From: Bacteriovoracaceae bacterium
GTDB lineage: Bacteria; Bdellovibrionota; Bacteriovoracia; Bacteriovoracales; Bacteriovoracaceae
Direction of reading: 5' to 3'
Length of the DNA: 39,336 nt
Assembly (NCBI GenBank): GCA_021732585.1
Contig: JAKFUR010000030.1
Span: 1 to 39,336 of the forward strand
Shown: positions 18,943-24,260 of the stretch, in pieces
Position numbering within the stretch: the stretch's first letter is position 1
Layout: the number at the start of each line of letters is the position of its first letter
The notes under the pieces: model-generated
Database searches by the model: none
The model's input: only the letters and a program-made list of their open reading frames with translations
Told to the model about the DNA's origin: nothing
Translations under genes and position numbers: made by a program

Positions 18943-19728
18943 TTAGCTGGCGAGATCTTCGTGGCTATCGAACTGAGTGCGAAGCTTCGCCTTCAATTTC
19001 AAAATCGCCTGGGTGTGAAGCTGAGACACACGAGACTCAGTCACGTCGAGAACCTGACCAATTTCCTTTAGGTTCAAATCCTCGAAGTAGTAAAGTGAGA
19101 GAACCAAGCGCTGCTTTTCTGGAAGCGTCTTAATGCCGTCTTTGATGACGTCTTGTGAGCGCTTGTAGTTTACAGCTGAGAACGGGTTGGCCGAACGGCT
19201 GTTTTCCATCAAATTGACCATCAGCTTCTTGTCGCCACGGCCCATAGAAGCGGTGTCATCGATATTGAGCAATGAAACCGATTTTGATTTGTTGATGAGG
19301 TCGTGGAACTCTTCCATGTTGCATTGAAGTTCAACGCACATTTCGTCGTCAGTCGCTGGGCGGCCAAGCTCTTTATCGAGCTTCGCGTACGCGCGCTCAA
19401 CCTGCTTCGCTTTTTCACGAACTGAACGTGGAACCCAGTCCTGTGAGCGCAATTCATCAAGAATGGCACCGCGGATACGGAATTCAGCGTAAGTCTTAAA
19501 TTTGTTATCACGAGTAGGATCGAACTTCTCGATGGCGTCCATCAGGCCGATCACACCACAAGACATCAAATCATCAAGCTCGATGTTTGAAGGCAAACGT
19601 GACGCAATTTTTTGCGCGATGTACTTAACCAGTGGGGCGTATTCGAGAATGATTTCATCTTTGACCTTCGGGTCAACCGTGCTGCGGTAGTCTTTCAGGT
19701 TCTTCAGTTTGGTTGTCAGAGATGACAT
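18943..19728 (-). CDS. fliA: Flagellar sigma factor (sigma28, FliA)
   Basis: 261 residues with the sigma70-family FliA/WhiG arrangement: region 2 (PLVKYIAQKIASRLPSNIELDDLMSCGVIGLMDAIEKFD, then FKTYAEFRIRGAILDELR), region 3 (PRSVREKAKQVERAYAKLD), and region 4 with a helix-turn-helix (LNLKEIGQVLDVTESRVSQLHTQAI). It directs transcription of late flagellar and often chemotaxis genes. It is last in the flagellar operon, 21 bases after flhG, followed by a terminator. No FlgM anti-sigma gene is in the window. Confidence 0.96.
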   Translation of the reverse strand: MSSLTTKLKNLKDYRSTVDPKVKDEIILEYAPLVKYIAQKIASRLPSNIELDDLMSCGVIGLMDAIEKFDPTRDNKFKTYAEFRIRGAILDELRSQDWVPRSVREKAKQVERAYAKLDKELGRPATDDEMCVELQCNMEEFHDLINKSKSVSLLNIDDTASMGRGDKKLMVNLMENSRSANPFSAVNYKRSQDVIKDGIKTLPEKQRLVLSLYYFEDLNLKEIGQVLDVTESRVSQLHTQAILKLKAKLRTQFDSHEDLAS

Positions 19729-19749: not shown

Positions 19750-20613
19750 TTAATGGACTTCTTGTTCCACTGCCGGACGTACAGAAATATTTCCGGCACC
19801 CCATTTTTCGGCGAACTGCTGCACGATCTTGAAGAAATTTTTATGCCACTCAGAACCTTCCTCAGAGAGGAAAAAAGTATCAAATGCCTCGGCAGAAACA
19901 TCCACTTTGCGCAAACCACCGAGTACATGAGTCCGGCATCCGAGGAAATTCTCGATGGTCTCGCTCAAGGTCATGACGACTTTTTGGAACTGGCGATCGT
20001 TCTGGATCATATTCACCAGCAAGTGGTTCTCTTTGATACCAAAACGAGTCTGAAGGATTTTTACGAGTGAGTACGAGTCTGTGATTGAGCTCTTATCAGG
20101 GGTCACCACGATCACACGATGATCACACCAAGCGTTCAGTGTGATGCTGGCGCGGTCGAGACCGGCCGGGCAATCAAGCAAAACCCAGTCGTACTCATGT
20201 TCGTGAGCACTGACGATATCGATGATGATTTCATCAAGCGCGAGTTGGCTCTCAAAAAGATCGACGCTGCCATTGCAGGCCGGCAAAAGATCAAAGCCTT
20301 CACGACGAATGATGCAATCACGGAAATCCTTCTCAGCAGAGAGTAATTTCCAGAATGTGTCGTCCAATGGAAGACCGAGTTTGATCGCTGTGTTTGAAAG
20401 ATTGGTGTCGCAATCAAGAAGAAGAACGCGGTGGCCTTGGCCCGCGAGTTCTTTCGCCATACGAAGGGCCACAGAAGTTTTTCCTACGCCGCCTTTACCG
20501 CCGGTAATAGAAACTTTCACACAAGTTGTGGGCTTTGAGAGACCGATAGCGGGGCGGGCGTTGGGGCGTGGTTGAGTCGTAAACGACATCAGCCAATCAC
20601 TGGTCTTCTGCAT
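19750..20613 (-). CDS. flhG: FlhG/FleN, MinD-like ATPase controlling flagellar number
   Basis: About 287 residues from ATG 20613. A deviant Walker A motif, GGKGGVGKTS, is intact near the N-terminus, followed by LLLDCDTNLSN and DWVLLDCPAGLD, as in ParA/MinD-type flagellar number regulators. The short N-terminal tail (MQKTSDWLMSF) resembles the activator helix that FlhG uses on FlhF. A longer frame to 20649 exists, but AGGAGG stands just before 20613 (spacing three bases, rather short). It lies between flhF and fliA. Its ATPase motifs look functional, in contrast to the partner FlhF. Confidence 0.93.
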   Translation of the reverse strand: MQKTSDWLMSFTTQPRPNARPAIGLSKPTTCVKVSITGGKGGVGKTSVALRMAKELAGQGHRVLLLDCDTNLSNTAIKLGLPLDDTFWKLLSAEKDFRDCIIRREGFDLLPACNGSVDLFESQLALDEIIIDIVSAHEHEYDWVLLDCPAGLDRASITLNAWCDHRVIVVTPDKSSITDSYSLVKILQTRFGIKENHLLVNMIQNDRQFQKVVMTLSETIENFLGCRTHVLGGLRKVDVSAEAFDTFFLSEEGSEWHKNFFKIVQQFAEKWGAGNISVRPAVEQEVH

Positions 20614-20683: not shown

Positions 20684-22180
20684 TCAGTGCAACTGAAATA
20701 ATCCTGCCATGATCCTTTCTGCCGTAGCGGACTCAACATCATCCGGAACAACGGGACCTGTGCCAAAGAACTTCAACGGAACCTTCGAATGCGCTCTATG
20801 GACGTTATAAAGGGCCCCAAAATTGAGACACAAGTCCACATGAGAGATTATAAGTCCGTCGGCCAGATCCTTGTAACGGGAAAGAATTTTACGGTTATAA
20901 AGTTCAGCATGAATCGCCGAGATAGTGATAAGCACTTCCACGTGGTGGAAGCTACGGCGGAGAGACTCAATAAATTTCTTAGTCTCATCATGCTGTTTAT
21001 TCGCCAGGCGTAGGTCGATCAGGGCACTTTTCCCTGCTTCCGTCGCCTTTCTGCAAAGTTGGATAATCTCGGCTTGGTTCTGTGCACGGTGGACTTTTAG
21101 ACCGAATACCTGAGCGGCAAAGTCTGCCCCGCCTTGATGACCCCCATCCGTTGAGTACTGGATCACTTCAACATCTTTCTTGAGGACGGCGATCTTGGTG
21201 CTCATGCTGCTCTGGCCAGCGGCCGCTTCAGATAGGAGCACAGTGATCACCGGCTCACTGCCGTCAACAGTCGAGAACATTGGCAACGCCACGTTCACCG
21301 ACTGAGTCATTTCACGGAGAGCAAATTCAAACACCACATCTGGGTTTTCGAGATCATCTTTAGAAAGCTCGTATGCAGCTTTGCGAAGTAGGTCGAGCAC
21401 AACTGACTCATCAACCTCAAGGGCCTTGAGGCTCGTGCGAAGCTGGTGCACACCGCGAGCATCACCATGAGCAGCAGCGATAGCAGCCGGGCCCATTTCG
21501 TGGAGTTTCTGCTCGAGGATTTCGATTTTGTGTTGTTGCGTACGGAGTTCTTGGCGCAGCTCATTCATCATCTCGCGCGCCTCACGAGAGATCGCAGGAG
21601 CGGGAGCAGCTTGCTGAACCGGTGCTTCCATCTCGCGCTCACGAGGAGCTGCTGTTTGGCGCGGCTGTGGAGCGGGCTTGGGCGCTGGTGCCTGACGGGC
21701 CGGACGTGGAGCTGGAATGTGGTCACGGGCGTCGTCGTCCATGTCCATATCATCATCGTCACCCAAGAAATCATCGAGGCCTTGCTTCAAGACTTGTGAG
21801 GTATTTTTAGCGGCGCCGGCGATATTGGCGGTGCCACGGGTGATTTGATTCACCACTCTATTCAGGCCCATGCCGCCGTAACCGGCTGCTGTCTGACCTG
21901 GAGTTTGTGCGTAGTCATCGATAGCTTCTTTGACTGAGTTGGCACCACGAGAGTAAAAATCACGTTTTTGATCTTCATTAAGCACTTTGTCCACCTTGGC
22001 TTTTTTCTCGATGTTTCTCTCGGAAACGGCCGCCGTGATCTCGATGCGCTTTTTTTTGAAAGCGCCCTTAAGGCCTTTGTTGGTGATGGTTTTGAGGATG
22101 ATGGCATCGGGACCCAGCTCAGCCTTGACGGCTTTCAGCGCCTCGTCGATGGTGTCTGCCTCAAACTTCTTCACAAACAT
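20684..22180 (-). CDS. flhF: FlhF-like SRP-family protein with degenerate GTPase motifs
   Basis: 498 residues. The N-terminus (residues 1-52, VKKFEADTIDEALKAVKAELGPDAIIL) is a clear FlhF B-domain start. A long linker (about 60-200) contains an acidic patch (DDDDMDMDDD at 141-150) and Pro/Ala-rich repeats. An N-domain-like helical part and a G-domain-like part (about 310-490) follow. The G1, G3 and G4 motifs expected in FlhF (GPTGxGKT, DTAGR, TKxD) are replaced by SEAAAGQSSM (317-326), DLRLA (389-393) and SHVD (446-449). The late segment TGPVVPDDVE still aligns with FlhF. Thus the protein keeps the FlhF outline but probably does not bind or hydrolyse GTP normally. It lies between flhA and flhG, as FlhF genes do. 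Placement of the polar flagellum is the family role. Confidence 0.9.
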   Translation of the reverse strand: MFVKKFEADTIDEALKAVKAELGPDAIILKTITNKGLKGAFKKKRIEITAAVSERNIEKKAKVDKVLNEDQKRDFYSRGANSVKEAIDDYAQTPGQTAAGYGGMGLNRVVNQITRGTANIAGAAKNTSQVLKQGLDDFLGDDDDMDMDDDARDHIPAPRPARQAPAPKPAPQPRQTAAPREREMEAPVQQAAPAPAISREAREMMNELRQELRTQQHKIEILEQKLHEMGPAAIAAAHGDARGVHQLRTSLKALEVDESVVLDLLRKAAYELSKDDLENPDVVFEFALREMTQSVNVALPMFSTVDGSEPVITVLLSEAAAGQSSMSTKIAVLKKDVEVIQYSTDGGHQGGADFAAQVFGLKVHRAQNQAEIIQLCRKATEAGKSALIDLRLANKQHDETKKFIESLRRSFHHVEVLITISAIHAELYNRKILSRYKDLADGLIISHVDLCLNFGALYNVHRAHSKVPLKFFGTGPVVPDDVESATAERIMAGLFQLH

Positions 22181-22184
22181 TCAG

Positions 22185-24260
22185 TTACAACCTTACGGTT
22201 CCAAGCGATCGAATATTAGTTTCCGGACTTAATTCATTATGGCTGACCACAACCAGGTTGGGAATGAACTTTTCAGTCAGGCGTTTGAAGTGGCGACGGA
22301 TGACCGGTGAACAGAGCACGACCATCTTCTCGCCAGCACTGGTAGCCTCTTCGATTTTCTCATTCAAGCTCGCAAGAATGGTTTGGGTCACTTTCGGATC
22401 AAGTGAAAGTTGGTCCCCACCCTCGCTACGAACAATCGAGCGAGCGATGCTTTCTTCTACTGAACGATCGAGGGTGAAGAGAGGAATGTCCCCTTGAGCT
22501 CCCTTGATTCGCTCGGTGATCTGACGGTATAACGCCTGACGAACGTACTCGGTCAATGCATCAGCATCTTTGCTGGTTGGCCCATACTCGCCCAAACACT
22601 CCAAGATTGAACGAAGGTCACGAACCGAGACACCTTCACGCAGCAAGTTCTGCATAACTTTGAGAACCGCACCCAAAGGCAAAATATCCGGGATAAGGTC
22701 GGCGACAATTTTTGGGTTCTCTTCTTTGAAGTTGTCGAGCAAGCGCACCAACTCTTGGCGACCGAGCAACTCTTGCAAGTTAGCCTTCAAAACTTCCGTC
22801 AAATGAGTCGCCACAACTGTAGAAAGATCGACCACTGTGTAACCGTTGTACTGAGCTTCGTCGCGCAGATCCTCTGTCACCCACAAAGCTGGCAAGCCAA
22901 ACACTGGCTCTTTGGTTTCGATGCCATCAACATTGCCAATGACAGTTCCTGGATCCATCGCCAAGAAGTGATCGGGCATCAATTCGCCTTTGGCGATCTC
23001 CACACCTTTCAACTTCACAGAATAGCCACCTGGCTTGAGTTCCAAATTGTCTTTGATTCGCACCGAAGGAATGATCAAACCCCAATCAGTAGCGAACTGT
23101 TTGCGCAAATGAGAAATACGCTCGAGGAGGTCGCCGTTCTGATCGGCGTCCACCAAACTCACGAGACCGTAACCCACTTCGAGCTGCACCAATTCCACCG
23201 GAAGAAGACTCTCGAGAGTTTCGCCCGTAGCTTTTTGTTCTTTAACCGCATCGTTCTTCGCCATAAGAATGTCGCGTTTTTTGTTTTCTTCAATTCTAAA
23301 ACCAACGAACCCGCTTGCTGCGGCGATCGCGAAGAATGGCAAACCAGGCAAACCTGGAATTAAGGCGAACATACCAATAACACCGCCGGTGATATAGAAA
23401 GCCTTAGGATTAACGCCGAATTCTTTGCCGATCTGACTGCCAAGAGCGCTGTCGTTACTTGAACGAGTGGCGATGATACCAGCAGCAGTTGAGATGATAA
23501 GAGCTGGGATCTGAGTGATAAGACCATCACCGACTGTCAGAAGGGTGAAGGTTTCAGCAGCCTGGCCAAATGGCATATCGTACTGAGCGACACCGATGAT
23601 GATACCGCCGATGATATTCACCGCCGTAATCATAATACCCGCAATGGCTTCGCCTCGAACGAACTTTGAAGCACCGTCCATAGAACCGTGGAAGTCCGCT
23701 TCTTGCGCGACTTCGGCACGACGGCGTTTCGCTTCTGTATTGTCGATCAGGCCAGCGTTCAAATCGGCGTCGATCGCCATTTGTTTACCTGGCATGGCAT
23801 CCAAGGTGAATCGTGCACTGACTTCAGCCACGCGACCAGCACCTTTGGTGATTACGATAAAGTTGATGATGACCAAGATGATGAAGATGATGATACCCAC
23901 GGCGTAGTTACCGCCGACAACGAACTCACCAAAGGCCTTGATGATCTCGCCCGCGGCGCCCGTGCCATCGTCTTTTGCGTGCAACAAAATGTTACGAGTT
24001 GAAGCGACGTTAAGTGAGAGACGCAACAACGTTGTTACGAGAAGTACTGATGGAAAAGTAGAAAAGTCCAAGGGCTTCTTGGCGTATACGCTCATCAACA
24101 TGATGACGACTGACAGGGCCAACGAAAGTGCCAAGAACACGTCGAGAGCAAGAGGTGGAATTGGCACCACCATCACAACCATGATCAGCAATAGACCCAT
24201 CGCTACCGCGAGGTCTGAATTTTGTGAGAAGATTTTTAGACGCGAAAACAATCCATCCAT
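22185..24260 (-). CDS. flhA: FlhA, flagellar export gate protein
   Basis: 691 residues, normal for FlhA (about 690-700). The N-terminal half has about eight membrane segments. The FHIPEP-family signature RVAEVSARFTLDAMPGKQMA and IDADLNAGLI lies in the cytoplasmic loop near residues 140-170. The C-terminal half is the cytosolic domain that forms the nonameric ring and docks substrates and chaperones. GAAGGA lies six bases before the ATG. It belongs to the type III export gate with FlhB, FliP, FliQ and FliR, encoded just upstream. Confidence 0.97.
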   Translation of the reverse strand: MDGLFSRLKIFSQNSDLAVAMGLLLIMVVMVVPIPPLALDVFLALSLALSVVIMLMSVYAKKPLDFSTFPSVLLVTTLLRLSLNVASTRNILLHAKDDGTGAAGEIIKAFGEFVVGGNYAVGIIIFIILVIINFIVITKGAGRVAEVSARFTLDAMPGKQMAIDADLNAGLIDNTEAKRRRAEVAQEADFHGSMDGASKFVRGEAIAGIMITAVNIIGGIIIGVAQYDMPFGQAAETFTLLTVGDGLITQIPALIISTAAGIIATRSSNDSALGSQIGKEFGVNPKAFYITGGVIGMFALIPGLPGLPFFAIAAASGFVGFRIEENKKRDILMAKNDAVKEQKATGETLESLLPVELVQLEVGYGLVSLVDADQNGDLLERISHLRKQFATDWGLIIPSVRIKDNLELKPGGYSVKLKGVEIAKGELMPDHFLAMDPGTVIGNVDGIETKEPVFGLPALWVTEDLRDEAQYNGYTVVDLSTVVATHLTEVLKANLQELLGRQELVRLLDNFKEENPKIVADLIPDILPLGAVLKVMQNLLREGVSVRDLRSILECLGEYGPTSKDADALTEYVRQALYRQITERIKGAQGDIPLFTLDRSVEESIARSIVRSEGGDQLSLDPKVTQTILASLNEKIEEATSAGEKMVVLCSPVIRRHFKRLTEKFIPNLVVVSHNELSPETNIRSLGTVRL

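Follow-up and report, generated by a model that had tools for sequence, protein, structure and literature searches.

Does a FlhF whose GTPase motifs have been replaced still belong to the FlhF family, and how might a flagellum be placed with it? The question is raised by the window, by which we mean the whole stretch of 39,336 nt that was analysed (contig JAKFUR010000030.1 of assembly GCA_021732585.1), from a member of the Bacteriovoracaceae, a family that includes known predators. The FlhF-FlhG switch is described as driven by GTP in those bacteria that have been studied; species differ in whether GTP is needed for binding, for dimerisation or for hydrolysis, and the matter is still disputed.

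The flhF locus and its family assignment

The flhF gene is a single uninterrupted frame of 498 aa flanked by flhA and flhG, and the gene order flhA-flhF-flhG-fliA is intact in the window. The features of the locus are:

22185..24260, minus strand: flhA, upstream neighbour of flhF (TIGR01398, E 1.9e-269)
20684..22180, minus strand: flhF (pseudo-GTPase FlhF), ORF of 498 aa (TIGR03499, E 1.7e-14; family profile with top PDB match 2PX0 FlhF, E 2e-11)
22016..22180, minus strand: FliG-interacting domain (FID), residues 1-55 (profile vs 9EN1, S. putrefaciens FlhF FID, E 8.9e-4; 78% mean identity in Bacteriovoracaceae)
21566..21970, minus strand: FlhF linker, acidic and Pro/Ala-rich, residues 71-205 (lowest conservation, 33% mean identity, highest pN)
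20687..21463, minus strand: FlhF NG domain, residues 240-498 (N 240-305, G 306-498; AF2 pLDDT 93.1, Foldseek best match 8R9R)
21203..21232, minus strand: P-loop (G1), residues 317-326, replaced by SEAAAGQSSM (Gln in place of Lys at residue 323, nt 21212-21214)
21002..21016, minus strand: G3, residues 389-393, replaced by DLRLA (retains the Asp; residue 391 is newly basic)
20834..20845, minus strand: altered G4 SHVD, residues 446-449 (Lys gone, Asp449 kept)
20732..20770, minus strand: retained G5 closing loop FFGTGPVVPDDVE, residues 471-483 (Gly475, Pro479 and Asp481 invariant, 56/56)
19750..20613, minus strand: flhG, ATPase, start probably 20613 (intact Walker A GGKGGVGKT, 20476-20502)
20581..20613, minus strand: FlhG N-terminal MQKTSDWLMSF, where DQAxxLR is expected (xWL in 56/58 Bacteriovoracaceae FlhGs)
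18943..19728, minus strand: fliA/whiG-type sigma factor, downstream neighbour (TIGR02479, E 1.6e-80)

The first-pass annotation, concerned with positions 20711-21253 (FlhF residues 310-490), had described a FlhF without recognisable GTPase motifs. For the single sequence the G domain is indeed unrecognisable and the observation was correct, since the protein scores just 54.5 bits against TIGR03499, under the curated cut-off of 174.15 that was reached by none of the sampled Bacteriovoracaceae genomes, a Pfam search with it gave no SRP54 match, and a PDB search gave no FlhF structure. The G domain was detected by family profiles only, where the single-protein Pfam and PDB searches missed it: a profile of the NG domain built from Bacteriovoracaceae alone had B. 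subtilis FlhF (2PX0) as its first PDB match, and hhalign against motif-intact FlhFs of the same phylum gave an E value of 3.5e-31 over 249 columns. These two independent routes placed the motifs in an identical register. When searched individually, 27 of the 41 Bacteriovoracaceae FlhFs matched SRP54. The AlphaFold2 model of the NG domain was closest by Foldseek to S. putrefaciens FlhF-GDP (8R9R, E 2.3e-14, TM 0.80 normalised by target length), and the N-terminal B domain/FID is present, as indicated by the match of residues 1-55 to 9EN1 and by TIGR03499. An SRP-type NG fold, statistical homology, the B domain/FID and the flhA and flhG neighbourhood thus all place the protein in the FlhF family, but it falls below the TIGR03499 cut-off and the G1, G2, G3 and G4 motifs fail, with G5 and single residues kept. 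As it is a FlhF by fold, FID and gene order but its GTPase motifs fail the definition (for that of a pseudo-GTPase, see PMC5593906), the accurate label is 'FlhF-family pseudo-GTPase', and the proposal of such a protein within an intact flagellar gene order is supported.

No second FlhF was found in the window's own genome or in 59 Bacteriovoracaceae genomes. They have the two full SRP54 domains that Ffh and FtsY should supply, apart from a few incomplete assemblies where these are absent or in fragments, and their FlhFs give only weak matches. Five relatives without FlhF are also without FlhA (the assemblies of three of them are incomplete), and this joint absence ties flhF to the flagellum. 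FliG_C was found in all 31 of the Bacteriovoracaceae genomes searched for it. Besides full FliG there are stand-alone FliG C-terminal ORFs of about 140-160 aa (G000:C156:2204-2518, G000:C35:9755-10063, and in relatives), and one 99% complete Bacteriovoracaceae genome (G029) has a full-length FliG-like ORF and neither FlhA nor FlhF.

Replaced and retained motifs across the family

FlhF homologues were drawn from whole genomes and GTDB contigs, giving 56 distinct Bacteriovoracaceae sequences (family f1) from at least 32 genera, including Bacteriovorax and Halobacteriovorax, and an outgroup of 69 from other Bdellovibrionota families. At the positions aligned with G1, G3 and G4 the window protein reads SEAAAGQSSM, DLRLA and SHVD, as had been noted from the open frame, and both alignment routes bear this out. 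Position 323, that of the P-loop lysine, is Gln in 56/56 Bacteriovoracaceae FlhFs and Lys in 69/69 of the others, far too regular a substitution for chance, so that the loss is clade-wide, and it lies within a substitute motif, S[ED]xx[SC]GQ[ST][ST]M, that is itself conserved across the family. Two further P-loop residues are exchanged, Gly317 for Ser (55/56) and Gly320 for Ala or Ser (52/56). G2 (D-x-Y-[RK]) is absent, a loss missing from the first-pass list, and G3 is replaced apart from Asp389, which is kept in 55/56. Residue 391, two positions after that Asp, is R/K in 53/56, and in the 69 outgroup sequences it is mainly Pro, Thr or Ala, with R/K not among the residues listed. The Lys of G4 and the Glu following it are lost. 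No canonical GTPase motif lies elsewhere in the window protein according to the two profile alignments.

Not all of the pocket has gone, however, and the earlier statement that every GTPase motif had been lost goes too far. Gly322 (the last P-loop Gly), the Mg-ligand Ser/Thr324, Asp389 and the G5 sequence TGxxVPDD (FFGTGPVVPDD in the window) are retained and near-invariant, the guanine-specificity residue Asp449 is present in all 125 FlhFs (56 Bacteriovoracaceae and 69 others), and loop length is unchanged. The depth of the loss was therefore overstated, as a subset of residues is kept, while its breadth, extending to all 56 Bacteriovoracaceae sequences, was understated. These retained residues, the unchanged loops and the family's R/K391 would suit a class-ii pseudo-GTPase, the pocket of which does not hydrolyse but still binds GTP or GDP, whether permanently or weakly, R/K391 taking the place of the P-loop Lys. 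WNK kinases are a precedent for such a relocated lysine. Against this, two of the three P-loop glycines are replaced, G2 is missing, and G4 lacks both its Lys and the Glu after it, and we regard continued nucleotide binding as rather unlikely, if still the most serious of the competing explanations given in this section.

Selection on the FlhF G domain is strongly purifying. Between close relatives its dN/dS is about 0.01-0.10 and its pN 0.004-0.10, against a pN of 0.03-0.30 for the linker, which is the fastest-evolving part of the protein, and mean identity within the Bacteriovoracaceae is 51% for the G domain. Among 41 aligned sequences Gln323, Lys329, Asp449, Pro468, Gly475, Pro479 and Asp481 are invariant, and a conserved block, SAIHSELYNRK, is specific to the family. 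The old motif windows are modestly enriched in highly conserved columns (9/35, Fisher p 0.04). As the replacement motif is itself conserved and dN/dS is this low, the gene is neither a pseudogene nor an assembly error. A FlhF in decay, with a dispensable, drifting G domain and a FliG-interacting N-terminus that suffices for function, might be imagined from the loss of several G motifs and from the erosion of G3 and of the FlhG DQAxxLR helix in many related families too, but the low dN/dS, the pN below that of the linker, the G-domain identity and the invariance of the replacement residues make it very improbable. A frame error in flhF is likewise ruled out by conservation and dN/dS.

Even less credit can be given to an artefact of sequencing, assembly or alignment, or to a paralogue beside a normal FlhF. 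The window genome is only 77% complete and in 176 contigs, which would allow for such an error, but the same residues recur in independent genomes, over 56 distinct sequences, among them those of a two-contig, 100% complete Bacteriovoracaceae genome (G006) with the same Gln323-type P-loop, the two alignment routes agree, and the search for a second FlhF was negative in all 59 genomes.

In a tree of FlhG, a gene free of the trait, the Bacteriovoracaceae all fall to one side of a branch with full support and the P-loop state needs a single change, of which the tree by itself fixes neither direction nor order. A degenerate G3 (DTAGR), together with a FlhG that lacks DQAxxLR, is seen in many other Bdellovibrionota families (loci L062-L071 and L084-L141), so that the hydrolysis apparatus has been lost much more widely than the P-loop. 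This suggests an order of loss in which the hydrolysis apparatus (FlhG helix and G3) eroded in much of the phylum, and the P-loop went last, in the Bacteriovoracaceae alone. The FlhFs of family f3 (L062-L071) are short (about 350-370 aa); their P-loop is intact, and an S-S-SSSFK-like sequence stands in place of the G5 loop. A further locus, L056, from a MAG, contains a stop.

FlhG and the proposed role of FlhF

The motifs of FlhG had been called intact, and this holds across the family: it has the motifs of a MinD-like ATPase, with GKGGVGK invariant in 40 Bacteriovoracaceae FlhGs. The DQAxxLR helix by which FlhG normally stimulates FlhF (PMC12826062) was found in 0/58 Bacteriovoracaceae FlhGs. 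It is present in families f7, f8, f9 and f20, whose FlhF motifs are well preserved, and was not found in the remaining families with a readable FlhG. Pseudomonas FleN is also without DQAxxLR, so that loss alone is not unusual (PMC12713375). In its place 56 of the 58 Bacteriovoracaceae proteins have an N-terminal xWL motif (the AF2 model gives a helix at residues 2-9, with low confidence), and this new conserved N-terminus indicates that the pairing of FlhF with FlhG apparently continues.

The FID of FlhF is known to bind FliG. Our preferred reading, to which we give a probability of roughly 0.6, is that the only FlhF of the Bacteriovoracaceae is a fixed, non-cycling SRP-type pseudo-GTPase that tethers FliG, the FlhG ATPase likely being the remaining switch. 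Judged from its motifs, FlhF would be unable to run the cycle of GTP binding and hydrolysis and would be held in one fixed conformation; it would reach the pole through its NG fold, and its N-terminal domain would tether FliG and, via FliG, also FliF. Release or number control would be handed over to the FlhG ATPase, whose conserved xWL segment, replacing the stimulatory helix, may continue to dock onto the NG domain, while the old pocket would be kept, empty or permanently occupied, as a structural or partner-binding site. Flagellum placement in the family would then probably no longer use a GTP on/off switch, and the earlier suggestion of FlhG as the sole nucleotide switch is a plausible one. 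Its companion, that the flagellum is sited by the linker alone, is disfavoured: because the linker is the least conserved region, linker-only function was rejected as the best reading, and most relatives have a linker that is less markedly acidic and less rich in Pro/Ala.

Experiments on other species bear on both the proposed fixed role of FlhF and its difficulties. Hydrolysis is dispensable in V. alginolyticus, as found with FlhF R334A (PMC6092412), and in Shewanella the binding of NG to HubP is apparently independent of nucleotide (PMC11236974). GTP binding, unlike hydrolysis, is thought to be essential in Vibrio (PMC6092412, PMC7226244), and the flagella of V. alginolyticus are abolished by T306A and D439A but only reduced by G299A, K305A and K437A (PMC6092412). 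Matched by motif order, not by direct alignment, the counterparts of T306 and D439 appear to be kept in the Bacteriovoracaceae (Ser/Thr324 and Asp449) and those of G299, K305 and K437 to be replaced. Against a fixed, non-cycling FlhF, then, it counts that the kept Ser/Thr324, Asp389, Asp449 and G5 are the residues a nucleotide pocket needs, and that two of them have presumed Vibrio counterparts (T306 and D439) whose mutation abolishes flagella; the enrichment of conserved columns in the old motifs, being modest, weighs against it as well.

More tentatively, it is possible that a GTP-free FlhF-FlhG pair places the polar flagellum throughout the family, with the pocket rebuilt (Gln323, R/K391, Asp449) as a fixed docking or ligand site that is read by the xWL of FlhG, and with no nucleotide signal besides the ATP of FlhG. 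The NG domain could also have acquired a new role that has nothing to do with switch control by FlhG, for instance in binding some other ligand or a pole protein peculiar to the family. The family-specific block SAIHSELYNRK would fit with this, as would the result that no FimV/HubP C-terminal domain scored above the cut-off in 31 Bacteriovoracaceae genomes, a search in which hardly any control genome matched either. We consider it improbable, however, as the flhG neighbourhood is kept and the conserved new N-terminus of FlhG points to continued pairing. A search for FipA (DUF2802) matched no control genome, and a plasmid search gave no result.

Comparison with known systems

Canonical FlhF (B. 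subtilis 2PX0/2PX3 and S. putrefaciens 8R9R) shares with the Bacteriovoracaceae protein the FID-linker-NG order, the SRP-type fold, the flhA/flhG neighbourhood, the G5 loop and the Asp residues of G3 and G4, but has none of its changes, namely the P-loop Lys to Gln, two replaced Gly, the missing G2 and the replacement of the rest of G3 and G4. The FlhFs of Bdellovibrionaceae and other Bdellovibrionota (f3, f6, f11 and others) are closer in that many have a degenerate G3 and a FlhG without DQAxxLR, but their P-loop GxxxxGK[ST] is intact in all those examined. Inactive FlhF variants (V. alginolyticus R334A, P. aeruginosa R251G) have likewise lost hydrolysis, R334A retaining normal polar flagella, but these are single laboratory substitutions with intact GTP-binding motifs.

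The Ras-like proteins and septins of eukaryotes are known to include pseudo-GTPases (PMC5593906, PMC10731463), and no report of a pseudo-GTPase FlhF was found in the literature searched (subscription literature and preprints excluded). Those of class i (p190RhoGAP pG1/pG2, CENP-M, fungal dynein LIC and, as proposed, septin Spn7) resemble the present protein in having a GTPase fold, replaced G motifs and a scaffold role, but they have eukaryotic Ras-like or septin folds, and here it is a bacterial SRP-type GTPase that keeps several pocket residues. In the literature searched, it would be the first SRP-family GTPase to have become a pseudo-GTPase across a whole clade. For Bacteriovorax one polar, sheathed flagellum is on record (PMC7175336), and a family stripped of the GTPase motifs, with members recorded as polarly flagellated, amounts to a natural experiment in which the scaffold job of FlhF is separated from its GTPase job.
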